The translations under genes were made by a program, and so were the position numbers. A model generated the notes under the pieces. The model was not told where the DNA came from and ran no database searches. It saw only the letters and a program-made list of their open reading frames with translations. This document shows positions 737-60,761 of a DNA stretch of 64,000 nucleotides, piece after piece; within the stretch, counting starts at the first letter, position 1, and each line of letters opens with the position of its first letter. Origin of the DNA: a virus; IMG/VR virus record IMGVR_UViG_3300018018_000001, positions 117,622 to 181,621 of that record, one strand, 5' to 3'.

Positions 737-994
737 ATGAGATTAAAAAACCATTTCGAGAAAATGTTTGACGGTATTTATTTAAGCTATAAATCCATAT
801 CCATAACCGATGATGGTAGACTGATTATGAAGACTGTCGGTTGCGGATGCTGCTCTGATGTGGAACCAGTGGATACGGATAACCTCCTGAAGGCGATTAC
901 TGAAACTGAGCACTACCTGAACCATCTTAAGGAATTAAAAAACAGGATTAAGAAAAATGCCCCTCTTCCGAAATTAAAGGAGAAATATAGTTAA
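737..994 (+). CDS. Hypothetical Cys-cluster protein
   Basis: 85 residues, ATG at 737, two bases after the upstream stop and with AGGATAA as the likely ribosome site. A tight cysteine cluster, CGCC, is at about residues 36-39, and the C-terminal half is a charged helix (HYLNHLKELKNRIKK). It could bind a metal, but no family was recognised. Its stop codon falls inside the next promoter. Confidence 0.7.
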   Translation: MRLKNHFEKMFDGIYLSYKSISITDDGRLIMKTVGCGCCSDVEPVDTDNLLKAITETEHYLNHLKELKNRIKKNAPLPKLKEKYS

Positions 995-1024
995 ACTTTT
1001 TATATGTTCCCGCCGATAAGATAA
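992..1024 (+). promoter_or_regulatory. Sigma-28 (FliA)-type promoter
   Basis: TAAACTTT at 992-999 and GCCGATAA at 1012-1019, 12 bases apart, followed by GATAATTAAAGGGAGG and an ATG. Matches the FliA consensus TAAAGTTT-N11-GCCGATAA apart from one base in the first box and one extra spacer base. Confidence 0.75.
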
Positions 1025-1041
1025 TTAAAGGGAGGAATATT

Positions 1042-1149
1042 ATGAACTTAGTAGAATTCTTTGACCCAAGAAACCTGGACCATATTAAGGCTTACAAACA
1101 TCTTTGTGATAAAGGAAAATATGGAAAGAACAAAAGGAATAAAACATAA
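1042..1149 (+). pseudogene. N-terminal fragment of an interrupted phage gene
   Basis: 35 residues from an ATG with GGGAGG at the right distance, directly behind a promoter. It begins MNLVEFFDPRNLDHIKAYKH. The DHIKAY...G pattern resembles the start of small phage proteins of the DHxKAYxHLxxTGxWPxGF type. After the 26th residue or so the sequence turns Lys- and Asn-rich and stops, and the rest of such a gene is absent. The overlapping frame at 1121 encodes a helix-turn-helix typical of homing endonucleases. I infer that a mobile insertion broke this gene and its downstream part was lost. Confidence 0.5.
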
Positions 1150-1303
1150 ATGGAAAAAAGAAAGAAAAATAACTAATGAAATGATTTTAAAAATCACGGA
1201 GTTAAGAAAGAATGGTAAAAAATTAAAAGAAATAAAAAATGAAACAGGAATAAATACCTGTACTATCAGCTTAATTTGCAATAAAAAATATAGATTTAGT
1301 TAA
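1121..1303 (+). CDS. Helix-turn-helix remnant of a homing endonuclease
   Basis: 60 residues from ATG 1121. The sequence ITNEMILKITELRKNGKKLKEIKNETGINTCTISLI has the form of the C-terminal DNA-binding helix-turn-helix of phage HNH enzymes (LTEEDV..IR.L...G.s..EIA...GVS..TIS.I). No nuclease domain remains. The strong AT bias matches the other HNH genes here. It overlaps the truncated gene at 1042 and probably marks an old insertion. It may be expressed as a small DNA-binding protein. Confidence 0.5.
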   Translation: MERTKGIKHKWKKERKITNEMILKITELRKNGKKLKEIKNETGINTCTISLICNKKYRFS

Positions 1304-1310
1304 AAAAGAC

Positions 1311-1343
1311 TAAACTATTTCTATATCCTTGCCGAAGAGATAT
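1311..1343 (+). promoter_or_regulatory. Sigma-28 (FliA)-type promoter
   Basis: TAAACTAT at 1311 and GCCGAAGA at 1331-1338 (12-base spacer), then GATATATAAAGAGG. Drives the AAA+ ATPase gene at 1381. Confidence 0.7.
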
Positions 1344-1380
1344 ATAAAGAGGCACTAAAAACGCAAGGAGGAAAAGGAAA

Positions 1381-2856
1381 ATGGCTTCAAAATTCAATCA
1401 ATATCTTAAAGCGGGGTATCCGGCCATTTGGATTGAAACTCATGAAGAATTCAGGGCTATTGCCACCCTAGCTTTTGAGTCAAATGGATATTCGGTTTTC
1501 TCATGGGATGTAGTCACTGGCCAACGGGACCATGCCACTGATAAGTATACAAAGGAATCCCCTGAAACCCCGATGAAAGAGATTGGCCGAATTCTCCAGA
1601 TGAAACCCGGTAGTGTAGTATTTCTTAAGGATTTTCCCAAGTTTTTTAACAATATTGAAGTCCTTCGTTCAATTAAAAATCTCATTTCTGAGATTAAAGC
1701 TGATGACAGGCATATTATTTTTATCAGTCCTGCGGTAAATATCCCCATTGAATTGGAAAAGGATGTAACCGTATTGCCCTTTACCCTTCCTACCGTTGAT
1801 GAATTGGTCCAGGTAGCGGAGAAGATAGTAAAAGATAACAAGTTTGATTCAGATAAATTTGATAAGAATAATAAACTGATTTCTAAAAAAGTAGAAGTGG
1901 ACCGTAAAACCATTTCAGTGGCCAAAGGGTTAACCCTACAAGAGGCCGAAAATGCAATGGCCAGATCCATAGTGGAAGAAAAGGGATTTTCCCGAAAGAT
2001 CCTGGAAGAAGAAAAACTCCAGTGCATTAAGAAGTCAGGCATGATGGAACTCTTTGAACCCATGCCCGAAGCCGAATTGGTTATGGATGGATTGAAAATG
2101 TATATCCATAGGAGAGTCAAGGGTTTTGAGCCTGATTCTACTATGCCCACTCCTAAGGGAATTCTCTTGGTGGGTATTCCAGGTGGTGGGAAGTCATTGG
2201 CCTCTAAGGTTATCGCCAGTGTTCTGGGTTGCCCTCTGGTTCGTGTAGACATTGGGGCCTTAAAGGGTAGCAAGGTGGGGGAATCCGAAGCCCGTATGAG
2301 ACAGTGTTTAGCCCAAATTGATGCCTTAGGATTCTGTGTAGTGTGGATGGATGAGATTGAAAAAGTCCTGAGCGGTGTTCAATCCAGTGGCCAATCGGAT
2401 GCAGGGACAACCTCTACCATGTTTGGAACCCTGTTAACCTGGATGCAAGAATCAAAATTCCCCCATTACATTGTGGCCACCTGTAATGAAATTCAAGACT
2501 TACTGGCCATTTCCCAAGGTGCCTTGTTAAGACGGTTTGATGATATCTTTTTTGTAGATCTTCCTTCTAAAGAAGAACGTGAAGAAATTATTAAGATTAT
2601 GAATAAGAGATACAGCACTAAATTAAATGGAAATTTAGCGGAAAGAACTCAGGGATGGACTGGAGCAGAAATTGAAAAATATGTTATAGCCAGTATTTAT
2701 GATGGAGAAGAAGAAGCTTTCAATAATGTCCATCCAATTAGTGAACAGAACAAAGAGATCATTGAAAATGCCCGGAAATGGTCTTTACAAAATGCACGTA
2801 TCGCTAATTCAAGAAAAGTGGAAATTAAACCTGAAGGAAGAAAGATTAGAGTGTAG
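1381..2856 (+). CDS. Ycf46-type AAA+ ATPase
   Basis: 491 residues. N-terminal domain (about 1-240) starts FNQYLKAGYPAIWIETHEE, as in Ycf46-like proteins. The AAA+ core has Walker A GIPGGGKS at residues 265-272, Walker B CVVWMDEIE at 319-327, and a later LLRRFD arginine-finger region. ATP-driven remodelling of a protein or nucleoprotein target is expected; the exact substrate is unknown for the family. DUF1257 (Ycf35) and DUF2997 genes follow at 5329 and 5694, and these three are commonly found together. A FliA-type promoter and GGAGG precede the ATG. Confidence 0.85.
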   Translation: MASKFNQYLKAGYPAIWIETHEEFRAIATLAFESNGYSVFSWDVVTGQRDHATDKYTKESPETPMKEIGRILQMKPGSVVFLKDFPKFFNNIEVLRSIKNLISEIKADDRHIIFISPAVNIPIELEKDVTVLPFTLPTVDELVQVAEKIVKDNKFDSDKFDKNNKLISKKVEVDRKTISVAKGLTLQEAENAMARSIVEEKGFSRKILEEEKLQCIKKSGMMELFEPMPEAELVMDGLKMYIHRRVKGFEPDSTMPTPKGILLVGIPGGGKSLASKVIASVLGCPLVRVDIGALKGSKVGESEARMRQCLAQIDALGFCVVWMDEIEKVLSGVQSSGQSDAGTTSTMFGTLLTWMQESKFPHYIVATCNEIQDLLAISQGALLRRFDDIFFVDLPSKEEREEIIKIMNKRYSTKLNGNLAERTQGWTGAEIEKYVIASIYDGEEEAFNNVHPISEQNKEIIENARKWSLQNARIANSRKVEIKPEGRKIRV

Positions 2857-2865
2857 AGAATTAAT

Positions 2866-3495: not shown

Positions 3496-3496
3496 A

Positions 3497-3703: not shown

Positions 3704-3714
3704 GAGGAAGTAAC

Positions 3715-4259: not shown

Positions 4260-4389
4260 TGGATTCTCAGGAATACCTAGAAGGTGAGAAAACGGGATGG
4301 GAACCGGAGACCCAGAATAACTACTCGAAGGGCTGATTCCCGTATCTGTAGGTCCTTTATCCCTGTGATTTCCTATTAGAGGGTAGAAT
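4260..4389 (+). other. Gene-free stretch with paired segments before tRNA-Tyr
   Basis: No convincing gene. ACGGGA near 4293 can pair with TCCCGT near 4337, and TGGG...CCCA pairs inside it, so a folded RNA is possible. A GTG-started frame near 4284 would give a 31-residue Arg-rich peptide; I do not find it convincing. Confidence 0.3.
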
Positions 4390-4470
4390 GATAAGGTAGC
4401 CCAGTGGGGAAGGGCAGCAGACTGTAAATTTGTGGCTTCGGCTGTGTAGGTTCAAATCCTACCCTTATCA
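4390..4470 (+). tRNA. tRNA-Tyr (anticodon GTA)
   Basis: 81 nt. Acceptor GATAAGG (4390-4396) pairs with CCTTATC (4463-4469), with A as discriminator. D-arm GCCC/GGGC. Anticodon stem GCAGA/TTTGT (two G-T pairs) encloses the loop CTGTAAA, giving anticodon GTA. A short extra variable arm GGC-TTCG-GCT fits the class II form of bacterial tRNA-Tyr, and the T arm is GTAGG-TTCAAAT-CCTAC. CCA is not encoded, so the CCA-adding enzyme at 37875 or the host's is needed. The flanks AGAAT and ATTCT extend the acceptor helix by five pairs. Confidence 0.9.
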
Positions 4471-4487
4471 TTCTGCTCTTTATTTAA

Positions 4488-4502
4488 TGACATTTTATGT
4501 CA
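4488..4502 (+). promoter_or_regulatory. TGACAT palindrome upstream of FliA-type promoter
   Basis: TGACAT-TTT-ATGTCA, a perfect 6-base inverted repeat ending 15 bases before the TAAA box at 4518. The same element is at 5228, 54630 and 60701 at nearly the same distance. Possible operator or activator site; a weak RNA hairpin is the alternative. Confidence 0.55.
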
Positions 4503-4517: not shown

Positions 4518-4549
4518 TAAACTTTTTCCAGGAATAGCCGATAAGATAT
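4518..4549 (+). promoter_or_regulatory. Sigma-28 (FliA)-type promoter
   Basis: TAAACTTT at 4518 and GCCGATAA at 4537-4544 (11-base spacer), followed by GATATTTAGAGG and the small gene at 4583. Confidence 0.75.
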
Positions 4550-4736: not shown

Positions 4737-5249
4737 TTGAAAGAGATTCCTCTAATCCCATTAGTCCCTGAAATGGGCAACCAAAAAGCGATTGTTGACG
4801 ATGAGGATTATGATCGTCTTATAAAATACAAGTGGTATTTGAATGCTCAGGGATACGCAGTCCGGTATATTGAGAAGGATGGGAAGCGGGTCTACATCCG
4901 TATGCACAGGGAAATCTTTAATACCCCTGAAGGTTTGGATACTGACCATAAAGAGAGGAATAATAGGACAGACAACAGGAAGGAAAATCTGAGGTCATGT
5001 ACCCGTGGGGATAATTCAAAAAATTCTAACCCTTGGAGTACTGACAGTAAATTTTGCTCTATTTATAAGGGAGTTACCTGGCATAATAGGAAAAAACATC
5101 CTTGGGTAGCAAGGATTAGGGTTAATAGGAAATATATTCATCTTGGGGTATTCAAAACAGAGATTGAGGCTGCTTTAGCCTATAATGAGGCAGCCAGGAA
5201 GTATTTTAAAGAGTTTGCCTACCAAAATGACATAAAATGTCAACCTTAA
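4737..5249 (+). CDS. HNH homing endonuclease with AP2 domain
   Basis: About 170 residues. I choose the TTG at 4737 because the protein then begins MKEIPLIPL...AIVDDEDY, the usual start of this family, with GGAAAGG upstream; a TTG at 4710 is also possible. HNH core: MHREIF, then DTDHKERNNRTDNRKENL. The C-terminal half is an AP2-type DNA-binding domain (IYKGVTWHNRKKHPWVARI...YIHLGVFKTE...AALAYNEAA). It lies between two FliA-type promoters and its tail runs through the palindrome at 5228. Confidence 0.9.
   Translation: MKEIPLIPLVPEMGNQKAIVDDEDYDRLIKYKWYLNAQGYAVRYIEKDGKRVYIRMHREIFNTPEGLDTDHKERNNRTDNRKENLRSCTRGDNSKNSNPWSTDSKFCSIYKGVTWHNRKKHPWVARIRVNRKYIHLGVFKTEIEAALAYNEAARKYFKEFAYQNDIKCQP
5228..5242 (+). 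promoter_or_regulatory. TGACAT palindrome upstream of FliA-type promoter
   Basis: TGACAT-AAA-ATGTCA ends 14 bases before the TAAA box at 5257. It overlaps the last codons of the HNH-AP2 gene. Confidence 0.55.
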
Positions 5250-5256
5250 AAATAAC

Positions 5257-5288
5257 TAAACTTTTTCTAACTTCTGTCGATAAGATCT
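5257..5288 (+). promoter_or_regulatory. Sigma-28 (FliA)-type promoter
   Basis: TAAACTTT at 5257 and GTCGATAA at 5276-5283 (11-base spacer). Drives the DUF1257 and DUF2997 pair. Confidence 0.7.
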
Positions 5289-5903: not shown

Positions 5904-6527
5904 ATGAATATTTGTGATCATGGTTGCGGACAAGAAGCTAAGTATTATTCTCAACAAACTAAAAAATGGCGTTGTAGTAAATGGCCTAGCTCTTGCCCAG
6001 AACTTAGAAGAAAAGATAGTGAGTCCCATAAAAAGCCTAAACCAGATCTTAAATTATGTGAATGTGGCTGTGGGAATTTTGCTAAGCCGGGTAAGAGATT
6101 TATACATTGGCATCATACAAGAGGAAAGAAAAGACTTGACTTGGCTGGCAAAAAAAGACCAGATCATTCTATCAAAATGACAGGTGAAGGAAATCCAAGG
6201 TTTGGCCAACCTGGTTATTGGAGAGATAAAAATAGGCCAGAATTTTCTGGTGAAAATCATCCTAATTGGCAAGGTGGCGTCTCTTTTGAACCTTATTCTC
6301 CTAAATTTAATAAACAATTTAAGACTATAATAAGAGAAAGAGATAATTACACTTGTCAACTATGTGGAGAATATGGAAACTTTGTTCACCACATAGATTA
6401 CAACAAGGAAAATACCAATCCTAATAATGCATTAACTTTATGCAATCCCGATAATTCTAAGGTAAATTTCAATAGGGACCAGTGGGAAACTTATTTTAGG
6501 CTTTATTTATTGATAAAAAAGAACTAA
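5904..6527 (+). CDS. HNH homing endonuclease with NUMOD3 repeats
   Basis: 207 residues. Two Cys-rich N-terminal pieces (CDHGCGQEAKYYS and CECGCGNFAKPGKRF) may bind zinc. Then NUMOD3-like repeats (GEGNPRFGQPGYW, GENHPNWQGG) and the HNH core (CQLCGEYG, HHIDYNKENTN, LCNPDNSKVN). Close relative of the genes at 1, 2866 and 29353. It starts 3 bases after the DUF2997 stop and its own stop falls in the next promoter. Confidence 0.92.
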   Translation: MNICDHGCGQEAKYYSQQTKKWRCSKWPSSCPELRRKDSESHKKPKPDLKLCECGCGNFAKPGKRFIHWHHTRGKKRLDLAGKKRPDHSIKMTGEGNPRFGQPGYWRDKNRPEFSGENHPNWQGGVSFEPYSPKFNKQFKTIIRERDNYTCQLCGEYGNFVHHIDYNKENTNPNNALTLCNPDNSKVNFNRDQWETYFRLYLLIKKN

Positions 6528-6556
6528 AGTTTTTTAAAAAACTGACGATAAGATAT
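6525..6556 (+). promoter_or_regulatory. Sigma-28 (FliA)-type promoter
   Basis: TAAAGTTT at 6525 (exact consensus first box) and GACGATAA at 6544-6551 (11-base spacer), then GATATATAAACAAAAGGAGG before the gene at 6579. Confidence 0.75.
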
Positions 6557-6578: not shown

Positions 6579-7439
6579 ATGGAAACTAACATGCAGGAAA
6601 GGGTACTTGTTGTAAGACTACATATTAGTAGATGGTGTCCCTGGGGTTACGATCAAAAAAAGGCTGCAGAGGTAGCTACCCAAGAGGGTTCCAAGAAGGA
6701 AGATACCCATGTTACCAAGCGGAAAATCAGCAAAGATGCCCTGAAGGATATCAATGATTTGCTGAATCAGGCTTATACCTATCATATCAGTGTCACGATG
6801 CCCTCAGGTGCTGATGGAGATCGGCTGATTACTACCGACCTCTACACCGAATATTGCACCAAGATGAATGAGTTTGAAACCAAGATACCGGCAGCTTTGG
6901 ATAAATTCCTTTCTGAATATCCCACGTGGAAAGAAGAAGCCAGGACCCGCCTCCAGGGATTATTCAAGGAAACCGATTATCCCTCAGTGGAAGAAGTCAA
7001 GAAGAAATTTTCTATCCGCTATTCTTTCCTGCCTCTCCCCTCAGTCAATAACATTGTGGTCAAGTTAGTCAACGGGGATTTGGCCAACGTCCGTAAGAAC
7101 GTGGAAGAGGAAATGTCTAAGATGTCCGAAATCGCCATGAAAAGCCTGTGGGACAAAACCTATGATGCAGTGGCTCACATGGCAGAGATCCTTGGTTCTG
7201 ATGCCCGTTTACACAAGTCCATGCTGGACAACATGAATGGTCTTTGTAATGTCCTGAAGTCCCTGAATTTCACCAACAACCCTGAATTGGAAGAGATGAG
7301 GTTAAAGATTTCAGTCCGTTTGGTTGGCCTTGACCCCAATGACCTTCGTAAATCCAGGAGTGTTAGAGAGGAGGTGGCCCGGGAAGCCAAGTCAATAGCT
7401 TTGGAAATATCACAGAAACGTATGATTCGCCTTGAGTAG
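6579..7439 (+). CDS. DUF3150-like phage protein
   Basis: 286 residues, ATG with AGGAGG. Starts with HISRWCPWGYD, then a charged and helical body with KISKDALKDINDLLNQAY near 48-65, and ends in a helix rich in Arg and Glu. The overall plan resembles DUF3150 proteins of phages and plasmids; I hold this loosely. Function unknown. It is the only gene clearly closed by a strong terminator-like hairpin in this part of the window, so it may be made at high level from its own FliA-type promoter. Confidence 0.7.
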   Translation: METNMQERVLVVRLHISRWCPWGYDQKKAAEVATQEGSKKEDTHVTKRKISKDALKDINDLLNQAYTYHISVTMPSGADGDRLITTDLYTEYCTKMNEFETKIPAALDKFLSEYPTWKEEARTRLQGLFKETDYPSVEEVKKKFSIRYSFLPLPSVNNIVVKLVNGDLANVRKNVEEEMSKMSEIAMKSLWDKTYDAVAHMAEILGSDARLHKSMLDNMNGLCNVLKSLNFTNNPELEEMRLKISVRLVGLDPNDLRKSRSVREEVAREAKSIALEISQKRMIRLE

Positions 7440-8495: not shown

Positions 8496-8863
8496 TGATA
8501 ACACTAAATGAAGCTATAAAGCTTTTGAATAAATATGCACCTTTGGGAACCCCGGAAGAGATTGAGAGGGCCATATACAAAGCGGAAGAGATTATAGGTG
8601 AATATAAATCTTTGTGATCTCCTGAGGAAATACAGGAAGCTTTGGAAGGGGCTAGTAATCTTCTTGAAAGATATAAGACTTTTGGAACCCCTGATGAGAT
8701 TGAAGAGGCTTTTGATTTGGCCAAACAAGCCCTTGGGGATTTAAAAAGCTTGGATGGATATTTAAAGAGTCAGGGGATACAGACCCCAAGAGATCCAGTT
8801 ATTCCCAAGACTGCCAAGGAAGTAATTGAAATGATTTCTAAAAGAAAGATCATTTTAGACTAA
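8495..8863 (+). pseudogene. Repeat protein gene interrupted by an in-frame TGA
   Basis: One frame runs from ATG 8495 to TAA 8861-8863, broken only by TGA at 8615-8617. The protein is made of repeats: LGTPEEIERAIYKAEEII, then (stop)SPEEIQEALEGASNLL, then FGTPDEIEEAFDLAKQAL. At the TGA the other repeats have Gly, so a single GGA to TGA change explains it. Either the gene is broken, or the 40-residue N-terminal piece is made alone, or the stop is read through. The downstream part has no good start of its own. No family recognised. Confidence 0.6.
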
Positions 8864-8893
8864 ACTTTTTTTGTCTTTCTGCCGATAAGATAG
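8861..8893 (+). promoter_or_regulatory. Sigma-28 (FliA)-type promoter
   Basis: TAAACTTT at 8861 and GCCGATAA at 8881-8888 (12-base spacer), then GATAGTTAGAGAGGG and ATG at 8908. Begins the replication and recombination gene run. Confidence 0.78.
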
Positions 8894-8907: not shown

Positions 8908-9096
8908 ATGAAAATAAGATGGGGAATTCAAATTAGGGATAAGGGACAGGTGGTTAGTATAAATCAATTCTTTTTGGATATCCCTGATGAAGAATTAGCA
9001 GTTTGTGAGACTACAGAGGAAAAGACTTCTTTGATTGAGTATTATGTAAATAAAGAATTTGAATGTAATTCCAATACTTTTTGGGAAGAAGTATGA
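8908..9096 (+). CDS. Hypothetical protein
   Basis: 62 residues, first gene after the promoter at 8861. Begins MKIRWGIQIRDKGQVVSINQFF; the rest is acidic (IPDEELAVCETTEEK). No family recognised. Its TGA overlaps the next ATG. Confidence 0.65.
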   Translation: MKIRWGIQIRDKGQVVSINQFFLDIPDEELAVCETTEEKTSLIEYYVNKEFECNSNTFWEEV

Positions 9097-32349: not shown

Positions 32350-32620
32350 TATTTATATTGGTCGTTGGAATCCAAGAATTCCTATTGATAGTAAATATCG
32401 AAACCCTTTTAAGATAGGGATTGACGGTGATAGGTTGGAATGTCTTAAGAAGTTCAAGGAATATTTCTATTCCAATTCTGCTCTTATGATTGATGCAGTA
32501 CAGGAACTTAAGGGAAAAATATTGGGTTGCTGGTGCAAAGAAGAGGGTAAGTCTGAAATGGAAACTCTTTGTCATGGGGATATTCTTGCCGCTTATGTGG
32601 ATAACTTTACGGAGGGTTAA
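32342..32620 (+). CDS. DUF4326 protein
   Basis: 92 residues, overlapping the previous stop by 8 bases. DIYIGRWNPRIP...KYRNPFKIGIDGDRLECLKKFKEYF...ELKGKILGCWCKE...CHGDILAAYVD is the complete DUF4326 pattern. The function of this family is not established; it often accompanies nucleotide metabolism in phages. Its last base is the first of the polymerase ATG. Confidence 0.85.
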   Translation: MDDIYIGRWNPRIPIDSKYRNPFKIGIDGDRLECLKKFKEYFYSNSALMIDAVQELKGKILGCWCKEEGKSEMETLCHGDILAAYVDNFTEG

Positions 32621-36802: not shown

Positions 36803-36835
36803 TAAACTTTCCCCCTTATTATGCCGAAGAGATAA
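36803..36835 (+). promoter_or_regulatory. Sigma-28 (FliA)-type promoter
   Basis: TAAACTTT at 36803 and GCCGAAGA at 36823-36830 (12-base spacer), starting right after the polymerase stop and followed by AAAGGGAGG. Confidence 0.72.
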
Positions 36836-42517: not shown

Positions 42518-43948
42518 ATGGAATTACGATATAACTTTCCCGAAATGGAAAATCGGATTTCAACTGCATATGCTTGCTTTTGTTTCGAGCATGGTAAGGG
42601 CCAAGCTAGTGAGGGTACTAAAACTGAACTGTATGAGGCAATAAAAGTCCTTACAGATGTCATTCTGCAGGATAGAAACCTGAATACGAAGAGGATGAAT
42701 AAAGAGGAAATCGCTTATGAGTACACGGTGGATTTGTATGAAAGGTTAGTGACTGGGGCTCTCAAGCCCAAAAGAAGAGATGGTTTGTTGTGGGGTCCTC
42801 TTGATCGCTTTGCCTGGAATGAATACATAAGACAGAATATAAAACGGACGATAGATAATATGGGAAAGAATACTCTATGGTCTGACATAATAATAGAGCT
42901 TGATGCTGTCCCCAGTGAAGAGGATTTAAAGGACCGTACTCAAGATGTTTGGTTTGAAAAGGAAGATTCATTAAACACAAATATTGACAAGGATAAATTA
43001 TCGGTTAAGATTTATAAATATCTTCAGGGTTTTTATGTGGATGAGGAAATAAACAGGCTTTGGCCTTTGGCATCGGAATTATATTTCAGAGATGGGGATA
43101 AAGCTATTCCTGATAATCTTCCTGATTACATAACCAATTTCATGAGAATTGGTTTAGGGGGAGCACGTAGGTTGGCTAAGCAATACAATATAAGATTCCC
43201 CCTGGATGAGGTTTCAGTCAAGGCCCTTAAACAGGCCGAAAAGTCCATGGCTTTCTCTACCCTGTTCCTTTCCGAAGTAATTGATGAGAAACAGATTGAC
43301 AGAAATTTATTACTGGCTTGTGATATCAATACCCTTTATACTTTGTCCCATTTATCAGGGGGGAGAAAGGTTGAGATCCCTACCATTAGGAAACTGGAGA
43401 GCGTTCAAGCGGCTGTTAAAATAGTTTCCAGAATGATAATAGATGGTAAGAATTTCCCGGATCTTAGGTATGAGAAGGGCAAGGAAAAACTGGATGGATT
43501 GATAGATTTAACGGTAGGGGAGTTTAATCTCATATTTGCGAATAAAAAGGATACACGCTATATTGCCTCAAAAATGATTGAAACCTATAACTTACATCCT
43601 TATGATACTAAAGGAGATCCTACAATTGACCTCCTGATTGTGGCAAGCAAGGCCCTTAACACGGTAGCGGCCCGATTACCTGATGCAGTGGATAAAAGTG
43701 TCCCTCTTAAGGATAGAATCAGGATGTTTAATGCTCTGGGTAGTATGCAGAGCAAGCTTTTGACAAGAACATCCAAGGCTTACAAATCTATACCTGAAAA
43801 GATGTTTTCTGATGATTTGAATAAGTCAAAAAACATTAATGTTATTGAGAAGTTAAAAGAGAATATCCAGAAGGGAATTGAGTCTGGAGCACCATCTTTT
43901 TTGATAAAAAAAGAGGAAGCAATGATAATTTTAAGGCTTTTGGACTAA
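42518..43948 (+). CDS. Large helical protein with sigma-region-2-like N-terminus
   Basis: 476 residues. Near 62-115: EEIAYEYTVDLYERLVTG...RFAWNEYIRQNIKRTIDNMGK resembles sigma region 2 (helix-loop-helix with a Tyr-Ile-Arg-x-x-Ile core). The rest is helical and not recognised; near 290-320 is RKVEIPTIRKLESVQAAVKIV, and no HNH or ATPase motif is seen. It might be a phage transcription factor, but the similarity is weak. It ends at the start of a FliA-type promoter. Confidence 0.6.
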   Translation: MELRYNFPEMENRISTAYACFCFEHGKGQASEGTKTELYEAIKVLTDVILQDRNLNTKRMNKEEIAYEYTVDLYERLVTGALKPKRRDGLLWGPLDRFAWNEYIRQNIKRTIDNMGKNTLWSDIIIELDAVPSEEDLKDRTQDVWFEKEDSLNTNIDKDKLSVKIYKYLQGFYVDEEINRLWPLASELYFRDGDKAIPDNLPDYITNFMRIGLGGARRLAKQYNIRFPLDEVSVKALKQAEKSMAFSTLFLSEVIDEKQIDRNLLLACDINTLYTLSHLSGGRKVEIPTIRKLESVQAAVKIVSRMIIDGKNFPDLRYEKGKEKLDGLIDLTVGEFNLIFANKKDTRYIASKMIETYNLHPYDTKGDPTIDLLIVASKALNTVAARLPDAVDKSVPLKDRIRMFNALGSMQSKLLTRTSKAYKSIPEKMFSDDLNKSKNINVIEKLKENIQKGIESGAPSFLIKKEEAMIILRLLD

Positions 43949-43978
43949 ACTTTTCCCTAGAAAGTGCCGAAGAGACAT
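43946..43978 (+). promoter_or_regulatory. Sigma-28 (FliA)-type promoter
   Basis: TAAACTTT at 43946 and GCCGAAGA at 43966-43973 (12-base spacer), then AAAGGGAGG and ATG 43995. Confidence 0.72.
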
Positions 43979-45185: not shown

Positions 45186-45218
45186 TAAACTTTTTCTGCA
45201 GACTTGACGAAAAGACTG
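45186..45218 (+). promoter_or_regulatory. Sigma-28 (FliA)-type promoter, weaker match
   Basis: TAAACTTT at 45186 and GACGAAAA at 45206-45213 (12-base spacer). The second box is the weakest of the set. Lies 170 bases before the signal-peptide protein, with a leader between. Confidence 0.55.
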
Positions 45219-47251: not shown

Positions 47252-47391
47252 TTCTTAATTTTTTCCATGTTTATTATGTTCCTCTTAAGATGGTGTCTGA
47301 TTTGGTGGTAACTATTGTTGCCATATTAGGATTTTTCTACCTTAGGGGTGTCTATAAAATCCTAAAAAATCTTAACAAGAAAAAATTCTAA
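47248..47391 (+). CDS. Small membrane protein
   Basis: 47 residues (ATGA overlap). One helix, MVSDLVVTIVAILGFFYLRG, then a very basic end (VYKILKNLNKKKF). No family recognised. Confidence 0.5.
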   Translation: MILNFFHVYYVPLKMVSDLVVTIVAILGFFYLRGVYKILKNLNKKKF

Positions 47392-47421
47392 ACTTTCCCT
47401 GTTATCCTGCCGATAAGAATA
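47389..47421 (+). promoter_or_regulatory. Sigma-28 (FliA)-type promoter
   Basis: TAAACTTT at 47389 and GCCGATAA at 47409-47416 (12-base spacer); the TAAA box overlaps the previous stop codon. Confidence 0.75.
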
Positions 47422-47477: not shown

Positions 47478-47807
47478 ATGGGAATTAGATGTTATCAAGA
47501 GATTGGTTTAAAACCTGAAGCAAGGAAGTTTCTCCATGAGAATTGTAAAATGCTTCCTAATTTAGTTTGTCCTGATTGTGGTAAAGTGATTTCTATGAAA
47601 ATGGATTGTGAGGTTTATGAGCAGAGAGAGGATTTTTATGAGAATGGACCAAATCTAAAAAAGTATGCCCTGAAGGATGGGACAGTGGCTTTTGAGGTAG
47701 TCCAGGCTGAACCTTGGAGCAGTGGTCCTGTTGCCTTTTTCTATCTTGAGATTGATGGAAAAAAAATGTTTACCTGGAGTGAATCCGAAATAAGTGACAA
47801 TTTATGA
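47478..47807 (+). CDS. Hypothetical protein with zinc-ribbon-like start
   Basis: 109 residues, ATG with AAGGAG upstream. CPDCGKVISMKMDCEVYE (about 31-48) is a zinc-ribbon-like knuckle; then GPNLKKYALKDGTVAFEVVQAEPWSSGPVAFFYLEIDGKKMF, a strand-rich part. No family recognised. First gene after the promoter at 47389. Confidence 0.62.
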   Translation: MGIRCYQEIGLKPEARKFLHENCKMLPNLVCPDCGKVISMKMDCEVYEQREDFYENGPNLKKYALKDGTVAFEVVQAEPWSSGPVAFFYLEIDGKKMFTWSESEISDNL

Positions 47808-48940: not shown

Positions 48941-48973
48941 TAAAGTTTTTCCCCTTTCTGGCCGATAAGATAG
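48941..48973 (+). promoter_or_regulatory. Sigma-28 (FliA)-type promoter, both boxes exact
   Basis: TAAAGTTT at 48941 and GCCGATAA at 48961-48968, both identical to the Escherichia coli FliA consensus, with a 12-base spacer. The best single match in the window. Confidence 0.8.
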
Positions 48974-49000: not shown

Positions 49001-49189
49001 ATGGAAAAAATGTTTTTGCATAGTAAATGTTGTGGTGGGCACTGGGAGTTAGCTAGGAATGAGGATGGTAGCTATGACTTAGAGTACCTAGAATGTGGTA
49101 AACCAGTTGGACCAAGTGTGAAAGTTACTGGCCCAGAATTGGGAGATTGCGAATGTGAGGAGTGTAAAAAAACAAGGAAATATAACTAA
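49001..49189 (+). CDS. Small Cys-rich protein
   Basis: 62 residues, ATG with AAGGAG upstream. Cysteines at KCCGGHW, LECGKP and GDCECEECKK form a likely zinc site. Acidic. No family recognised. Confidence 0.6.
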   Translation: MEKMFLHSKCCGGHWELARNEDGSYDLEYLECGKPVGPSVKVTGPELGDCECEECKKTRKYN

Positions 49190-50881: not shown

Positions 50882-51694
50882 ATGAGTTACAAAGTTAAGG
50901 AATTTAAAAAGAAATATGTCAGGAGATTTGCCGGAGTTGCCGATTTGCATGTTGGATCAGGTTACGCAATTCTTCCCAAAATGGTGAGTTTAAGAGAGGG
51001 AGGAAGTCTCTATCCAAGTCCAGAGGAAGAATTAATTTGGTCCTATTGGAAAGATTTTAATGATCAATGTAATGAACTTGAGGTTGATACTGCCATTATT
51101 AATGGAGATATTATTCATGGAACTAATCACAAAGATGATGGCCGGAGTGTTATTTTTGGTAAGATAAATCTTCAAATTGAAGTGGCTGTAGAAATATTAA
51201 GACCATTTTGTAATGGAAGGCAATCGTGGTTTTTTCAAGGTTCTGAATATCATTCAGGAAGTCCTAATAATGATTTTGAAGAAAACATTTGTAAAGAACT
51301 CAAGGGAGAATGGTTTGGTCAATCGGCAACAATAGGAATTAAGCCAATTAATAAGGTTATTCAAATTACTCATGCTACTAGTACATCTCCTAAAGAAGAA
51401 ATTAAGACTGTAGATGCAAATAAAGGCGTTGAGAAAGGCCCCAAAATAGATTTGCTTATCAAAGCGCATAAACATGGCTATTTTTGTTTCCAAACTGATT
51501 CGGCAACAGTAGTTCAACTACCTTGTTGGACTGGATTTGAGCCTTCAAGAATTACAAGAAAAAGAGAAAATGAATATCTATATACTCATACTATTGGTGG
51601 GGTATTATTCCTCTTTGACGAAAAAGGAAATCTGGAAGTTAAACCTATTCTGAAAACAAGAAAAGGTGAGCCTTATAGGGTGGTAAAGAAATAG
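50882..51694 (+). CDS. Metallophosphoesterase
   Basis: 270 residues from ATG 50882 (GGAGG 5 bases upstream). GVADLHVGSG (motif I), INGDIIHG (GD motif), FFQGSEYHSG (GNHE position altered) and KAHKHGYFCF (GH motif). The fold is that of calcineurin-like phosphoesterases; it could act on DNA, RNA or a small phosphodiester. It is unlike the SbcD-like protein at 11995. Ends 1 base before the next promoter box. Confidence 0.78.
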   Translation: MSYKVKEFKKKYVRRFAGVADLHVGSGYAILPKMVSLREGGSLYPSPEEELIWSYWKDFNDQCNELEVDTAIINGDIIHGTNHKDDGRSVIFGKINLQIEVAVEILRPFCNGRQSWFFQGSEYHSGSPNNDFEENICKELKGEWFGQSATIGIKPINKVIQITHATSTSPKEEIKTVDANKGVEKGPKIDLLIKAHKHGYFCFQTDSATVVQLPCWTGFEPSRITRKRENEYLYTHTIGGVLFLFDEKGNLEVKPILKTRKGEPYRVVKK

Positions 51695-51695: not shown

Positions 51696-51728
51696 TAAAC
51701 TTTCTTATTAATTATTCCGATAAGACAT
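51696..51728 (+). promoter_or_regulatory. Sigma-28 (FliA)-type promoter
   Basis: TAAACTTT at 51696 and TCCGATAA at 51716-51723 (12-base spacer), then GACATATAGAGGGAGG. Drives three lipoprotein genes. Confidence 0.72.
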
Positions 51729-53089: not shown

Positions 53090-53977
53090 ATGAGTTACAT
53101 GGACATGGATCAGCTTTACAAAAACAGGGACATAATGCTATTTCGGGAAGCCTATGCCCTTGAAAAAATTCATGGGACCAGTGCTCATATCATTTGGAAA
53201 TCCCCCATTGTGGAAGGATGGAAAGAAGGAAAGGTTTCTTTATTCCCTGGAGGTTCTGATTATCCATCTTTCTCTGCTCTATTCAATCTTGAGGATCTTA
53301 AGGCCAAGTTTACTGAGCGTTTCCTTGATCGGGATGTTGTTATATATGGAGAGGTGTACGGTGGAAAGATGATGGACATGAGTGACACCTATGGACCCAA
53401 ATTGAAATTCATTGTCTTTGAAGTCAAGATAGGGGAGCATAGCTTTCTTAATGTTCCTCATGCAGAAAAGGTGGCCCTGGAATTCGGCCTTGAGTTTGTT
53501 CCCTATGAAAAGATTTCTACTGACATAGCCTCCCTGGATGCCGAAAGGGATGCTCCTTCTATCCAAGCTATTAGAAATGGTATGGGTTATGATAAGAAGA
53601 GGGAGGGAATAGTCCTGAGGCCCCTGATTGAGGTTAGAAAGAACAATGGCCAGCGGGTAATCTCAAAGCACAAGGCAGAAGATTTCAAGGAAACCAAGAC
53701 CCCACGTAAGCTTGATGCTGAGAAGCTTGCTATCCTGTCTAAGGCAGAGGATATAGCCGAAGAGTGGGCTACCCCAATGCGCCTTGTTCATGTCCTGGAT
53801 AAATTCCCCATAACTGCTGGCATGGAGCAGCTTGGGGAAATCATAGTGGCTATGATAAAGGACATTGAAAAGGAAGCTGGTGGAGAGGTAGAGAATTTCA
53901 AGGAAGCCAGGAAGGCTATTGGAAAGAAAACTGCAGAAATGTTTAAGGAAAGGTTTAAAAGTGGATTGCAGCCATGA
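53090..53977 (+). CDS. RNA ligase (T4 Rnl2-like)
   Basis: 295 residues. The nucleotidyltransferase motif I is EKIHGTSAH (Lys is the AMP attachment residue), then DRDVVIYGEVYGG (motif III), FIVFEVKI (IIIa) and REGIVLRPLIEV (IV) with SKHKAEDFKE (V). All motifs of ATP-dependent RNA ligases are present, with a helical C-terminal domain. It would seal broken RNA, for instance tRNAs cut by host anticodon nucleases, perhaps with RlaP (48010) and Thg1-like (40091). Confidence 0.9.
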   Translation: MSYMDMDQLYKNRDIMLFREAYALEKIHGTSAHIIWKSPIVEGWKEGKVSLFPGGSDYPSFSALFNLEDLKAKFTERFLDRDVVIYGEVYGGKMMDMSDTYGPKLKFIVFEVKIGEHSFLNVPHAEKVALEFGLEFVPYEKISTDIASLDAERDAPSIQAIRNGMGYDKKREGIVLRPLIEVRKNNGQRVISKHKAEDFKETKTPRKLDAEKLAILSKAEDIAEEWATPMRLVHVLDKFPITAGMEQLGEIIVAMIKDIEKEAGGEVENFKEARKAIGKKTAEMFKERFKSGLQP

Positions 53978-54446: not shown

Positions 54447-54637
54447 TGGATTGGGAAATGATTGATGGATTCCATTTTAGGTTAAAGGTTCCAGGGGGGT
54501 GGATATTTAAAGTCCTGGAGGAGGTAGTCCATAATCATCCCAATCATGGATTTACTCCTGGATGGGATTGGAGAGTGGCAATATGTTTCATTCCAGATCC
54601 CGATCATCTTTGGATAGTGGAAAAGAAAGTGACATAA
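54446..54637 (+). CDS. Small hypothetical protein
   Basis: 63 residues. MIDGFHFRLKVPGGWIFKVLEEV...GWDWRVAICFIPDPDHLW is Trp- and His-rich and strand-like. No family recognised. Its last codons lie in the TGACAT palindrome. Confidence 0.6.
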   Translation: MDWEMIDGFHFRLKVPGGWIFKVLEEVVHNHPNHGFTPGWDWRVAICFIPDPDHLWIVEKKVT

Positions 54638-54644
54638 AATGTCA
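54630..54644 (+). promoter_or_regulatory. TGACAT palindrome upstream of FliA-type promoter
   Basis: TGACAT-AAA-ATGTCA, ending 15 bases before the TAAA box at 54660; identical to the copy at 5228. Confidence 0.55.
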
Positions 54645-54659: not shown

Positions 54660-54692
54660 TAAACTATTTCTATCCTCTTGCCGAAGAGATAT
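54660..54692 (+). promoter_or_regulatory. Sigma-28 (FliA)-type promoter
   Basis: TAAACTAT at 54660 and GCCGAAGA at 54680-54687 (12-base spacer), very close to the copy at 1311, then GATATATAAAGGGAGG. Confidence 0.72.
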
Positions 54693-55440: not shown

Positions 55441-56012
55441 TGCCTAAGATTCTTGATTTAATGAGAAAAAGATTTGGAAAGTTAGTTGTTATTGATAGGG
55501 GGAAAAGAAGAACTCCTAACGGGGCTATGTATTGGTTATGTAAATGCGATTGTGGAAAAGAGAAAGAAATTCCAAGTAGATGCTTGGTTACTGGAGATAG
55601 CAAGAGTTGTGGTTGTGCATACAAGCTTCCAGATGGTGAATCAATGTTTCGTGTTTATCTAGGTAGGATAAAGAGAAATGCTAAAATTCGTAATCTTTCT
55701 TTTCTCCTTTCTGACGAAGAGGTTAGGTCTCTTAGTAAACAAAACTGTCATTATTGCGGTTTAGAACCAAAACAAAAGGCTCATCAGAAATATTCTAATG
55801 GTGATTATATTTATAATGGTATTGATAGGATTAATAACTCCAAGGGATATGAAATTGAAAACGTGGTTCCATGTTGTGTAACATGCAATTATGCTAAAAA
55901 AGGAATGTCTTATGATGAATTTATTTTGTGGATAGATAGGGTGCATAATAATCTATCTAAAGTATTTGGGAAAAGAATGTCTGTAATTTCTTTTTTAAAG
56001 GAAAATAAGTGA
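55440..56012 (+). CDS. HNH homing endonuclease (third type)
   Basis: 190 residues. N-terminal domain KRFGKLVVIDRGKRR...YWLCKCDCGKEKEIPSRCLVTGDSKSCGC is the zinc-binding head common in phage HNH enzymes; then CHYCGLEPKQKA, YNGIDRINNSKGYEIENVVPCCVTCNYAKKGMSYDEF is the nuclease core. It fits exactly between two genes with 1- and 4-base overlaps. Confidence 0.88.
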   Translation: MPKILDLMRKRFGKLVVIDRGKRRTPNGAMYWLCKCDCGKEKEIPSRCLVTGDSKSCGCAYKLPDGESMFRVYLGRIKRNAKIRNLSFLLSDEEVRSLSKQNCHYCGLEPKQKAHQKYSNGDYIYNGIDRINNSKGYEIENVVPCCVTCNYAKKGMSYDEFILWIDRVHNNLSKVFGKRMSVISFLKENK

Positions 56013-56548
56013 TCCCTACTAGAATATTCTTTACCAAGGGTGTTGGATTCCATAAGGATCAGCTGATCTCTTTTGAAGCTGCCCTGAGGGATGCTAAGAT
56101 TGCTCCTTATAATTTGGTTAAGGTATCCAGTATCCTTCCCCCTAAGTGTGAGATAGTCAAGAGAGAGATAGGGATAGGTCTTCTTGCTCCAGGTCAAATT
56201 GTTAATGTAGTCTTGGCCAGGAATGAGGTTAAAGAGAATAGGAGGCTTATCTCTGCGGCTATTGGTGTGGCTATTCCAAAGGATAATCAGGTGCATGGAT
56301 ATTTATCGGAGCTTCATTCTGAGGGGTTAAATGAAAGAGAGTCCCGGGATTGGGCTGAAGATAGAGCTGCAGAATTGTTGGCTTCTACCCTTGGAATTCA
56401 GTTTAATTCGGATAAGGCTTGGGATGTTGATAAGGATATTTTCAGGATAGGCAAGAGGGTGGTTAAGACCAAAAGCATATGCCAGTCTGCGATTTGTAAA
56501 AAGAATTTGTGGACAACCGTAGTGGCAGCGGCTGTATTTGTTCCCTAA
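56009..56548 (+). CDS. Pyruvoyl-dependent arginine decarboxylase
   Basis: 179 residues from GTG 56009. NLVKVSSILPP holds the self-cleavage site: the chain is cut between Ser40 and Ser41 to form the pyruvoyl group. Also GVGFHKDQLISFEAALRDAKI, LLAPGQIVNVV and ISAAIGVAIPKD, as in archaeal and bacterial PvlArgDC. Converts arginine to agmatine plus CO2, the first step toward polyamines, which can neutralise packaged DNA or alter host physiology. Rare in a phage. It ends at a promoter box. Confidence 0.88.
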   Translation: MIPTRIFFTKGVGFHKDQLISFEAALRDAKIAPYNLVKVSSILPPKCEIVKREIGIGLLAPGQIVNVVLARNEVKENRRLISAAIGVAIPKDNQVHGYLSELHSEGLNERESRDWAEDRAAELLASTLGIQFNSDKAWDVDKDIFRIGKRVVKTKSICQSAICKKNLWTTVVAAAVFVP

Positions 56549-56578
56549 ACTTTTTATCTGTTTCTGCCGATAAGATAA
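56546..56578 (+). promoter_or_regulatory. Sigma-28 (FliA)-type promoter
   Basis: TAAACTTT at 56546 and GCCGATAA at 56566-56573 (12-base spacer); overlaps the decarboxylase stop. Nearly identical to the copy at 992, including GATAATTAA downstream. Confidence 0.78.
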
Positions 56579-56593: not shown

Positions 56594-56989
56594 ATGAATA
56601 GACAGGAAATGATTGACAATCTCATGTGGAATAGCGGGGGAACAGGATATGGAATTTGTTCTTTTTCCATTGCAGGGGCTATGATTTGGAATGACATGAG
56701 ACCCAAGACTCCAGAGGATGATTTGAAATCAGTGGTTGCCATTATGGAACCTAAGGATCTTTACACTGATGAGGAATTAGAGAAATTGGTAGCTTTTTCC
56801 AAGGAGAAAACAGCCCGGTATGATGAAATGTATAGGTGGCGAATGGGTTGTAATCTTATATTTATTGGGAAAAGTGAAAGGGTTGAGAAGGGTGAATTTT
56901 ATTGGCTCAGGAAAAGGCAATCCTGGAATATGGGACCTATGCATTCCAATACACTTGATGAAGCTTTAGAAGTAATGGGTAAAAATTAA
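56594..56989 (+). CDS. Hypothetical protein
   Basis: 131 residues behind a FliA-type promoter with GGAAGG. MIDNLMWNSGGTGYGICSFSIAGAMIWNDM, PEDDLKSVVAIMEPKDLYTDEELEKL. No family recognised; the Gly-rich start could bind a nucleotide, but no P-loop is present. Confidence 0.62.
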   Translation: MNRQEMIDNLMWNSGGTGYGICSFSIAGAMIWNDMRPKTPEDDLKSVVAIMEPKDLYTDEELEKLVAFSKEKTARYDEMYRWRMGCNLIFIGKSERVEKGEFYWLRKRQSWNMGPMHSNTLDEALEVMGKN

Positions 56990-57884: not shown

Positions 57885-57888
57885 AAAA

Positions 57889-58083: not shown

Positions 58084-58474
58084 CCGAAGCCGGGTCAGGG
58101 TCTTACTGGAGGAATTCAATAGGTATCCTGAGATTATTATTCAATACCTGGAATCCTCTGTCTGTTTTACCTTCCCTGAATTGATAGATCCTATTGATAA
58201 AGGTGAATTTCACTGTATGTTTTCTTATGAAGGACTTTCTGAGGCTGAAGGAGACTTTAGATCTTTTATAATCAGAGCGGGTAATAAGTTAGGGGATTGT
58301 GATTTGGAAGAGGTGGCACATAAGTTTTTGATGAGTAGAAATGGAATCCCTGGATTCTGGAATCATTATCCCAAGGTGTTGGCTGATAAACTGGATAGGA
58401 TCTGCAGACGATTTCCTAAAGTATCTGTAAAAAGAAACACGGAGGGATTATTCTATTATGTCCAGACTAGATGA
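58067..58474 (+). CDS. Hypothetical protein
   Basis: 135 residues. RVRVLLEEFNRYPEIIIQYLESSVCFTFPELIDPIDKGEFHCMFSYEGLSEAEGDFRSFIIRAGNKLG. Basic N-terminus, mixed alpha-beta body. No family recognised. Overlaps the next start by 17 bases. Confidence 0.62.
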   Translation: MKKRVNRSRVRVLLEEFNRYPEIIIQYLESSVCFTFPELIDPIDKGEFHCMFSYEGLSEAEGDFRSFIIRAGNKLGDCDLEEVAHKFLMSRNGIPGFWNHYPKVLADKLDRICRRFPKVSVKRNTEGLFYYVQTR

Positions 58475-58948
58475 AGAATTTGATATTGTGAGAGAGACAG
58501 ATTTCTTCCTGGCCATTACCACTTTAAAGGTTGGCCTAATAGATGCTATCTTTGGTCCTCAGGGTGGTATCTTTATTTTGGATGATCGTGAATGTCTTGT
58601 CTATCATAGACCTCATTCAAAATATAGAGGAATCTATCTATCAGTTGATAACATTATGAGCTTCCATTGGAAATGGCTCATAGACCGATTTAAAAGAGCC
58701 GTGGACGTTACCCCCCTAAAGAAACTCCTAAACCTTCTCAGGATTCTGCCGATAAGACAAGTAAGAGTAAAAGCCTGGATGATCAGATTTCAGATCTTTG
58801 TGACCATTGTACTCTTGGTAGGTGTTCAGGCCCATGTGATGAATATTCAAGATTACTTGATGAGGATAGTAAAAAGAAAAAGACACCTAAAGAAAGATTT
58901 GGAACAATGGAGTTTGATTCAGATGGTAAATCCCATATGAATGACTAA
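58458..58948 (+). pseudogene. Hypothetical protein gene with an apparent -1 frameshift
   Basis: The first frame gives LDEEFDIVRETDFFLAITTLKVGLIDAIFG...NIMSFHWKWLIDRF, then from about 58698 it turns into unlikely sequence and ends at 58940. The -1 frame from about 58694 continues more naturally (PPKETPKPSQDSADK, then CDHCTLGRCSGPCDEY, acidic tail) to TAA 58946-58948. A missing base in the A-run of TTTAAAAGAG (58689-58698) would join them. It may be a mutation, a sequence error or programmed shifting. No family recognised. Confidence 0.5.
58729..58760 (+). promoter_or_regulatory. Sigma-28 (FliA)-type promoter match inside a gene
   Basis: TAAACCTT at 58729 and GCCGATAA at 58748-58755 (11-base spacer). 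It lies in coding sequence (encoding PKPSQDSADK) and may be accidental. Confidence 0.35.
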
Positions 58949-58965
58949 GTAGGAGGCCAGGTCAA

Positions 58966-59933: not shown

Positions 59934-60075
59934 TGGACCCCACAAGTGCCTTGGTTGTGATAAGCGTATTCCCAGAAGATATGCTGAAAGCCATAAGAAA
60001 GATTGCCCTCATACCAATTTGACTGAGACTGTAAAGAGATTGCAAGAGAAAGGTTTTAGAGGGAGGGGAGAATGA
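59914..60075 (+). CDS. Small zinc-finger-like protein
   Basis: 53 residues from ATG 59914, inside the end of the HNH gene with GGAGAG upstream. HKCLGCDKRIPRRYAESHKKDCPH has a C2HC-like set. Basic. No family recognised. Confidence 0.55.
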   Translation: MKKQKIDGPHKCLGCDKRIPRRYAESHKKDCPHTNLTETVKRLQEKGFRGRGE

Positions 60076-60185
60076 TTTATTTATTAATTTCTATGACTAT
60101 CATTGGTTTGGGTCTTTATTTTATCCTGATTGCAAGGTCTGGATCTGATGAACATGTACCCCATCCTGAGGAGAAAAGATCATGA
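60072..60185 (+). CDS. Small membrane protein
   Basis: 37 residues (ATGA overlap). One helix, MIYLLISMTIIGLGLYFILIA, then SGSDEHVPHPEEKRS. Single membrane anchor. No family recognised. Confidence 0.5.
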   Translation: MIYLLISMTIIGLGLYFILIARSGSDEHVPHPEEKRS

Positions 60186-60319
60186 ATAGGAAAGATAAAA
60201 ATCTAAAAAGGGCAAGACTGTCTGAGGGTAAAGTTTATGCTACAGCAGTTGATCCCAAGAGGAATCGAAGGAAACGGAAAACTAAAAAAGGAAAAATAAT
60301 ACTATTTAGAGATTTCTGA
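60182..60319 (+). CDS. Small very basic protein
   Basis: 45 residues (ATGA overlap). DKNLKRARLSEGK...DPKRNRRKRKTKKGK, about one third Lys and Arg; nucleic acid binding likely. No family recognised. Confidence 0.48.
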   Translation: MNRKDKNLKRARLSEGKVYATAVDPKRNRRKRKTKKGKIILFRDF

Positions 60320-60320
60320 T

Positions 60321-60703
60321 ATGTCTATAAAAATAGAAAAAGTTTGTGAGGATTGTAATTCTTTATATACTCCTACAAGTAATCATCAAAAGAGATGTAT
60401 TTCTTGCAGAAGAAAAAGAAAGAATTATAATAGAAAATGTTACTATCAAAAAAATAGAAAGAAATTATTAGCTAATGTGCTGCTACTGAAAATCTTGGGG
60501 TAGACCACATTGGTGGGTATGATGGTAAAAGTCCAAGAGGTAAAACAAAACTCTGGATATGGCTTAAGAAAAATAATTTTCCTCCTGGGTTCCGAATTCT
60601 TTGTGATAGATGTAACTTTTTAGATGGGCAACTTCGTAATCATCCTGCTTTAGGGGTTAATGGAATTGATGACTTAATTAGATTAAAGAAGTTGGATAAG
60701 TGA
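60321..60703 (+). pseudogene. HNH homing endonuclease remnant (DHYGH family)
   Basis: The first part (CEDCNSLYTPTSNHQKRCISC...KNRKKLLAN) and the last part in another frame (ATENLGVDHIGG, WLKKNNFPPGFRILCDRCNFLDGQLR, GVNGIDDLIRL) belong to one HNH gene, but the DHYG-C-x2-C block between them is gone and the frame changes near 60475. A short deletion explains this. The nuclease is expected to be inactive. Confidence 0.82.
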
Positions 60704-60715
60704 CAGAAAATGTCA
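60701..60715 (+). promoter_or_regulatory. TGACA palindrome upstream of FliA-type promoter
   Basis: TGACA-GAAAA-TGTCA, ending 13 bases before the TAAA box at 60729. A slightly altered copy of the palindromes at 4488, 5228 and 54630. Confidence 0.5.
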
Positions 60716-60728
60716 CTAAAGAAATAGC

Positions 60729-60761
60729 TAAACTTTCTCCTTGGATATGCCGAAGAGATAT
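60729..60761 (+). promoter_or_regulatory. Sigma-28 (FliA)-type promoter
   Basis: TAAACTTT at 60729 and GCCGAAGA at 60749-60756 (12-base spacer), then GATATATAAAGGGAGAGG and ATG 60778. Confidence 0.73.

Follow-up and report, generated by a model that had tools for sequence, protein, structure and literature searches.

What reads a set of flagellar-type promoters in a phage genome? The question is raised by a virus record of 181,621 bp (IMG/VR record IMGVR_UViG_3300018018_000001), the right end of which, bases 117,622-181,621, is the 64,000-nucleotide stretch analysed here as a whole and called the window. From its letters, an earlier note had listed fifteen intergenic promoters of the FliA (sigma-28) type, each with a TAAA-containing box, a spacer and a GCCGA-containing box, and had proposed that they depend either on the FliA of motile host cells or on a sigma factor of the phage's own.

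We examined first whether the array exceeds chance. The boxes were present at all fifteen coordinates. With a two-box weight matrix and each site left out in turn (leave-one-out), the fifteen scored 27.0-38.1 bits, while no unrelated position in the window exceeded 17.2 bits. An equal motif density in comparison DNA had been named beforehand as grounds for abandoning the idea; in 100 second-order Markov sequences built from the window itself, the mean maximum was 11.4 bits and the highest 18.1. With up to three mismatches allowed, a strict pattern matched 11 times where 0.01 matches were expected. Coincidental resemblance in AT-rich DNA is refuted by this excess, by the gap of 31 versus 17 bits and by the ceiling of 18.1 bits in the sampled sequences, and we give that explanation practically no weight. 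The count of fifteen was sound but incomplete: a sixteenth site, TAAACCTT-N11-GCCGATAA (its second box also given as GCCGATAAGA), had been overlooked at 58729..58755 (+). It scored 31.1 bits outside the matrix training set. All 16 window sites are on the + strand, as claimed. The fifteen also lie outside called genes, but six of them overlap or come within two bases of the upstream stop codon, and the sixteenth is inside the open reading frame (ORF) 58458-58940. Extending the matrix scan to the phage record, as the earlier note had proposed, raised the number of sites scoring above 20 bits to 21, five of them outside the window; the matrix covered 138,621 bases in separate stretches, and the remaining 43,000 bases, searched by pattern only, held no FliA-type site.

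The anatomy of the sites could then be described more closely. The fifth base, given earlier as C or G, is C in 13 of the 15 and G in two, so that the usual box is TAAACTTT and not TAAAGTTT; the spacer is 12 bases in 12 sites and 11 in three. The copy at 48941, singled out as an exact consensus match, does match in both boxes but has a spacer of 12. The string GATATATAAAGGGAGG, said usually to come next, follows in full at one site of 15 (AAAGGGAGG at four, GATA at 11), and that detail falls. GA follows the second box in all 15. The consensus layout is TAAACTTT, a spacer with a T/C-rich start, GCCGA(T/A)(A/G)A, GA and then A/G-rich sequence; an A-rich stretch lies upstream, and C directly precedes TAAA in 14 of the 15. 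With no motif preset, the top 8-letter words enriched upstream in the window included CTAAACTT, TAAACTTT, ATAAGATA and CGATAAGA. A start codon lies 19-27 bases past the second box in 9 of the 16 sites; if transcription begins some 7 bases downstream of that box, such leaders would contain hardly anything besides a ribosome-binding site. The expected start codon is missing at 45186, where none with a ribosome-binding site occurs in the range examined. As the earlier note had remarked, there is no sign of an ordinary sigma-70 promoter set: in 40 of the 64 kb, sigma-70-type sites numbered 57 against 61.2 (standard deviation, s.d., 8.9) and 51 against 56.5 (s.d. 9.7) in shuffled sequence. Conservation extending past both boxes towards the ribosome-binding site would also suit another kind of conserved intergenic cassette, such as a processing or recombination element. 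Two boxes around a weakly conserved spacer, the A-rich stretch upstream, a location immediately ahead of genes and the presence of a matching sigma factor in the same genome argue instead for promoters, and a non-promoter cassette is very improbable. The array is certain as sequence, and its members are very likely promoters.

That sigma factor came from a search for region 2 and region 4 profiles, a check suggested in the earlier note, which was positive outside the window. Record positions 28570-29313 encode a protein of 247 residues, the only one in the whole record to match sigma-70 region 2, and PF04542, PF04539 and PF04545 all exceed their Pfam cut-offs in it. The best NCBIfam model is TIGR02479 (FliA_WhiG; 174.1 bits, 3e-51, short of the curated cut-off of 189.6) and the next best are other FliA/WhiG models; the general sigma-70 superfamily (89.5 bits), SigBFG (74) and RpoD (57) score lower. 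This shortfall, together with a region 3 match confined to positions 2-40 of the 78 in PF04539, counts against a full assignment: judged by its sequence, the protein is of FliA type but a divergent relative, and not a certified FliA/WhiG member. E. coli FliA in the PDB matches residues 22-228 at 1.2e-27, with 33% identity to residues 20-227. Its residues D81, R84, R91 and R94, which we take to be important for the GCCG part of the promoter, are identical in the alignment with the phage sigma. The -35 helix has several substitutions, including S to G, H to R and S to D; any connection of these with the replacement of G by C at base 5 is guesswork. A single-sequence AlphaFold2 model was uninformative (predicted local distance difference test, pLDDT, 50.7), and no match to the anti-sigma family FlgM (PF04316) was found in the phage record. 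From the presence of 16 cognate-type promoters, TAAA-N15/16-GCCGATAA, in the window and 5 elsewhere, we infer a pairing with this protein: the phage's own sigma very probably reads these promoters.

Thus, of the two alternatives originally offered, a sigma of the phage's own is the one borne out, and since the phage encodes it, the phage need not rely on motile host cells. Host FliA might nevertheless read the promoters, leaving the phage sigma redundant or in the service of other genes. The boxes do fit the FliA consensus, and five other viral contigs carry one or two FliA-type sites each; TIGR02479 had no match in four of them and a weak one (28.9 bits) in the fifth, which has a single site, so that phage use of host FliA is plausible as such. 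In the present phage, however, the sites mostly have the TAAACTTT box and a spacer of 12, shifted from the E. coli form quoted earlier, a FliA-type sigma is encoded in the same genome, and no other set of sites was found for that sigma to serve. We therefore consider exclusive use of host FliA improbable, although the host protein could still help at phage promoters. Two viral contigs, IMGVR 3300032018_000004 (L023, L029) and 3300027627_000003 (L022, L028), each have two sites of the TAAAGTTT form and no TIGR02479 match, and are candidates for true dependence on host FliA. A site scan of genome contigs, made with a gap of 10-11 against the phage spacer of 11-12, returned 11 stretches with one match each and did not identify the host; one of the 11 (L061) shows a likeness to proteins of the present phage (5e-5).

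When would the phage sigma act? Its gene lies in the structural region. Record positions 18-80 kb hold protease, capsid, sheath and tail-fibre-like genes, 87 of 91 called genes are on the + strand, and in these 62 kb there is no FliA-type site on the + strand and one on the - strand. The window side carries the genes for primase, UvsX, helicase, SbcC, SbcD and DNA polymerase and a tRNA-repair set. A sigma gene among structural genes, with FliA-type promoters before replication-side genes, would be a sensible arrangement if the sigma acts in the next cell.

The N-terminus of the protein bears on this possibility. In the available excerpts of PMC9026906, T4 proteins are described as being brought into the head by targeting propeptides of 10-19 residues, which are cut off after [L/I]-X-E. 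The phage sigma begins with the 12 residues MDKSQNILKLLE, with region 2 starting at residue 23. The pattern M-x-K-[AS]-...-[ILVF]-[LM]-...-E, which we call the tag, stands at the start of 17 other proteins of the structural region, including near neighbours of the sigma gene (27490, 28218, 29576), and in none of the 116 window proteins. On a matrix of the other 17, the held-out sigma tag scored 12.2 bits; the 116 window proteins averaged -17.3 (s.d. 7.0) with a maximum of -1.8. A further 26 sigma genes and E. coli FliA scored between -26.7 and -2.3 when read from their most probable starts, and no start gave more than 1.8. These 26 came from a FliA query; among them are a few weak relatives, L076-L078 and L084-L085 look like copies, and four of the 27 FliA-type sigma loci of viral contigs (L090, L091, L093 and L095) were dropped as short fragments. 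Alignment A1, two rows of which are shortened at the N-terminus, served for searching only. An [LIVFM]xE ending at residues 11-16 occurs in 18/18 tagged proteins, against 17/116 in the window and 14/90 other record proteins; the stricter [LI]xE is found in 14 of the 18. After shuffling the order within the tagged starts, [LIVFM]xE appeared in 4.5 of 18 on average and in no more than 12 in 2000 trials. Past the tag, 0/153 pairs of tagged proteins are similar at E 0.01, and within the tags 166 of 353 same-residue pairs have different codons; the conservation is consequently of protein and not of a copied DNA piece. Two further candidates, 50028 and 78432, were doubtful and were kept out of the matrix by eye.

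The phage also has head-maturation genes of T4 type, with a prohead protease (PF03420, 33.8 bits, cut-off 27) and a capsid protein (PF07068, 51.8 bits, cut-off 24.4) whose gene adjoins that of the gp21-type protease. Only one of the ten other tagged proteins scanned had a Pfam match. This protein of 96 residues (L043:1204-1494, record 51204-51494) is ferritin-like, matching EncFtn-like (28.8 bits, cut-off 27), rubrerythrin (28.9, 22.8) and COQ7 (30.6, 23.5) models; a ferritin-like protein within a phage head would be odd.

Taken together, these features suggest the following course of events. The sigma would be made late, together with the structural genes; the tag MDKSQNILKLLE would direct it to the inside of the prohead, and cleavage there by the T4-type protease, after LLE, would fall ahead of region 2. 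Ejected with the next genome, the mature sigma would join host core RNA polymerase and at once turn on the early and middle genes (replication, tRNA repair and others) of the phage regulon. Transcription of early phage genes usually depends on the main sigma factor of the host; with a sigma entering alongside the DNA, the phage would need few or no host-sigma-70 early promoters. We consider packaging and ejection of the sigma reasonably probable, and give the same credence to the full account of a late-made, packaged and ejected sigma reading the phage regulon. That such a sigma makes host RNA polymerase read flagellar-type early promoters across the phage from the first moment is slightly better than an even bet.

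The classical model for phage sigma factors is a middle-gene switch, in which the sigma would read the same promoters but be made after infection, the likeness of its tag having some other cause. Besides agreeing with that model, synthesis after infection would suit the sigma gene's own ribosome-binding site and a terminator-like hairpin just upstream of the gene preceding it, features through which its transcription may be separate, and many neighbouring genes are without a tag. Yet record positions 18-57 kb contain no FliA-type site, sigma-70-type sites in 18-38 kb are not above the shuffled level (65 against 72.6, s.d. 10.7), the gene sits in a stretch of tail-fibre-like and tagged genes, and the held-out tag score of 12.2 compares with at most -1.8 bits in the window. 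Synthesis only after infection is, in our estimate, rather unlikely.

Several observations nonetheless weigh against a packaged and ejected sigma. The tag family, the sigma among it, was chosen by eye before scoring, and the scoring test was thus not blind; for four of the 17 tagged members the leave-one-out score is negative, and in one case lower than that of the best window protein. The excerpts of PMC9026906 characterize the internal proteins of T4 as small and basic, whereas the net charge (K+R-D-E) is -8 for the sigma body and -21 to +10 for the other tagged proteins. The protease went undetected in a first whole-record PF03420 search. Early and late timing is read from gene content, and words upstream of 86 structural genes gave no convincing promoter motif. 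The capsid protein is 43.8% identical to those of Rhizobium phages such as RHph_Y65, but RHph_Y65, the nearest capsid relative tested, had no region 2 match, and no tag family was seen in 47 of its 207 kb (best 4.6 bits; 52/53 annotated features). No sigma-promoter pairing was found in independent relatives.

According to the excerpts of PMC9026906, T4 relatives too show little conservation of their internal proteins. Searching viral contigs by capsid protein confirmed no relatives, and the matching contigs L010 and L014 are 99.98-99.99% identical to the phage and hence the same phage. FliA-type sigma loci numbered 27 in viral contigs, one of them that of the present phage; their flanks (266,887 bases) contained no comparable site array, only 9 weak scattered matches. 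The pattern TAAA-N14/17-GCCGATA matched 10 times in the present record (reversed control, 2) and 0-1 times in each of seven other whole records with a FliA-like match. Sigma-like matches occur in Pseudomonas phage Lauda and Vibrio phage GR7B. As the matching contigs are copies and no array was seen around the other sigma loci, the combination rests on one phage.

The individual sites, all on the + strand and given with leave-one-out scores, are distributed as follows. At the left end of the window, TAAACTTT-N12-GCCGATAA at 992..1019 (31.9 bits) overlaps the stop of ORF 737-994, with a first start at 1042, and TAAACTAT-N12-GCCGAAGA at 1311..1338 (33.8 bits) precedes an AAA ATPase-like gene (1381-2856). 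TAAACTTT-N11-GCCGATAA at 4518..4544 (38.1 bits) is downstream of tRNA-Tyr (4389-4471); TAAACTTT-N11-GTCGATAA at 5257..5283 scores 27.0 bits, and TAAAGTTT-N11-GACGATAA at 6525..6551 (30.9 bits) precedes gene 6579-7439. The site at 8861..8888, TAAACTTT-N12-GCCGATAA (38.1 bits), precedes gene 8908-9096 and heads a 28-kb block with replication genes, the next site coming only at 36803..36830. The latter, TAAACTTT-N12-GCCGAAGA (34.5 bits; start at 36852), lies directly 3' of the DNA polymerase gene and upstream of the genes for tRNA nucleotidyltransferase and tRNA-His guanylyltransferase. TAAACTTT-N12-GCCGAAGA at 43946..43973 (33.9 bits) overlaps the stop of ORF 42518-43948. Beyond TAAACTTT-N12-GACGAAAA at 45186..45213 (29.0 bits), which has no near start codon, the next called gene is at 45385. 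Genes 47478-47807 and 49001-49189 are preceded by TAAACTTT-N12-GCCGATAA at 47389..47416 (27.4 bits) and TAAAGTTT-N12-GCCGATAA at 48941..48968 (34.7 bits), respectively. TAAACTTT-N12-TCCGATAA at 51696..51723 (29.5 bits) is followed by genes from 51746, and TAAACTAT-N12-GCCGAAGA at 54660..54687 (33.8 bits) by a start at 54709. TAAACTTT-N12-GCCGATAA at 56546..56573 (38.1 bits) overlaps the stop of ORF 56009-56548 and precedes gene 56594-56989; the last, TAAACTTT-N12-GCCGAAGA at 60729..60756 (36.1 bits), precedes gene 60778-61152.

Four of these sites have a palindrome of the form TGACA-N5-TGTCA upstream: TGACATTTTATGTCA at 4488..4502 begins 30 bp before the 4518 promoter, TGACATAAAATGTCA at 5228..5242 and again at 54630..54644 begins 29 and 30 bp before those at 5257 and 54660, and the near-palindrome TGACAGAAAATGTCA at 60701..60715 begins 28 bp before that at 60729. 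With four in the window and none in six other record stretches examined, they may represent an operator acting on part of the regulon.

Gene matches support the earlier placing of replication and tRNA-repair genes behind these promoters; for its envelope genes the support is limited to lipoprotein-like starts from 51746, judged by eye. The tRNA-repair set comprises tRNA nucleotidyltransferase (37875-39239), tRNA-His guanylyltransferase (40091-40837) and RNA ligase (53090-53977). The DNA polymerase (1393 residues, 32620-36801) carries a uracil-DNA-glycosylase domain of family 4 at its N-terminus, together with an intein-like insert. Numerous genes with starts resembling those of homing endonucleases of several types (GIY-YIG-like, HNH-like and a CYYGCGQ family, by eye) lie between other genes in the window and in record 18-80 kb. 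The five sites outside the window are at record 116588(+), 116873(+), 99987(-), 96560(-, 23.6 bits) and 57677(-). The last is a perfect-consensus site just upstream of the protease gene, pointing against the structural genes; in the 120 bases behind it no ORF of more than 70 codons begins, and it could therefore make an antisense or small RNA.

If the proposal is true, a packaged sigma would add to host sigma-70 and virion RNA polymerases a third route to early transcription, one simpler than the virion enzymes. The phage would offer a sigma-promoter pair complete in itself, with some 20 natural promoters, and the 17 other putative ejected proteins, one of them ferritin-like, would be candidates for host takeover.

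How new would this be? The earlier note had called the use of flagellar promoters by a phage a new regulatory strategy. Phage-encoded sigma factors as such are known, T4 gp55 and SPO1 gp28 among them, and serve middle or late genes; what is new is the combination, a FliA-type promoter array and a matching sigma with a capsid-targeting-like N-terminus. Excerpts of PMC9429907 and PMC7824862 add sporulation-like sigmas of Bacillota phages and sigma factors of group 2 jumbo phages, respectively. Like all of these, the present protein would redirect the host core enzyme; those known phage sigmas act on middle or late genes or on host sporulation, and in these excerpts none is described as FliA-type with such a regulon or as ejected. 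The strings 'flagell', 'sigD' and 'flia' do not occur in the text of PMC9429907, and among the matches listed in the open-licence literature nothing was on point for phage FliA promoters or a packaged or ejected sigma.

Like E. coli FliA and the FliA/WhiG (sigma-28) family, the phage sigma combines regions 2, 3 and 4 within some 250 residues, and its sites share the arrangement TAAA-spacer-GCCGATAA. It differs in being phage-borne, with sites before phage genes, in a base 5 that is mostly C and not G, in a spacer of 12 and not 11, and in its capsid-targeting-like N-terminus. The resemblance to T4 internal proteins, as these appear in the excerpts of PMC9026906, lies in a short tag at the N-terminus, with [L/I]xE at its end, that unrelated phage proteins have in common, and is one of length and ending, not of residue-by-residue comparison with T4 tags; a gp21-type protease and a gp23-type capsid are likewise shared. 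T4 Alt, which is ejected and modifies RNA polymerase according to the same excerpts, is a precedent for an ejected RNA-polymerase modifier, whereas the putative cargo here is a complete sigma factor. Finally, N4 and jumbo phages have virion RNA polymerases (excerpts of PMC4496689 and PMC7598289). Like them, the present phage would carry transcription machinery in the virion; unlike them, it would carry a specificity subunit for the host enzyme.

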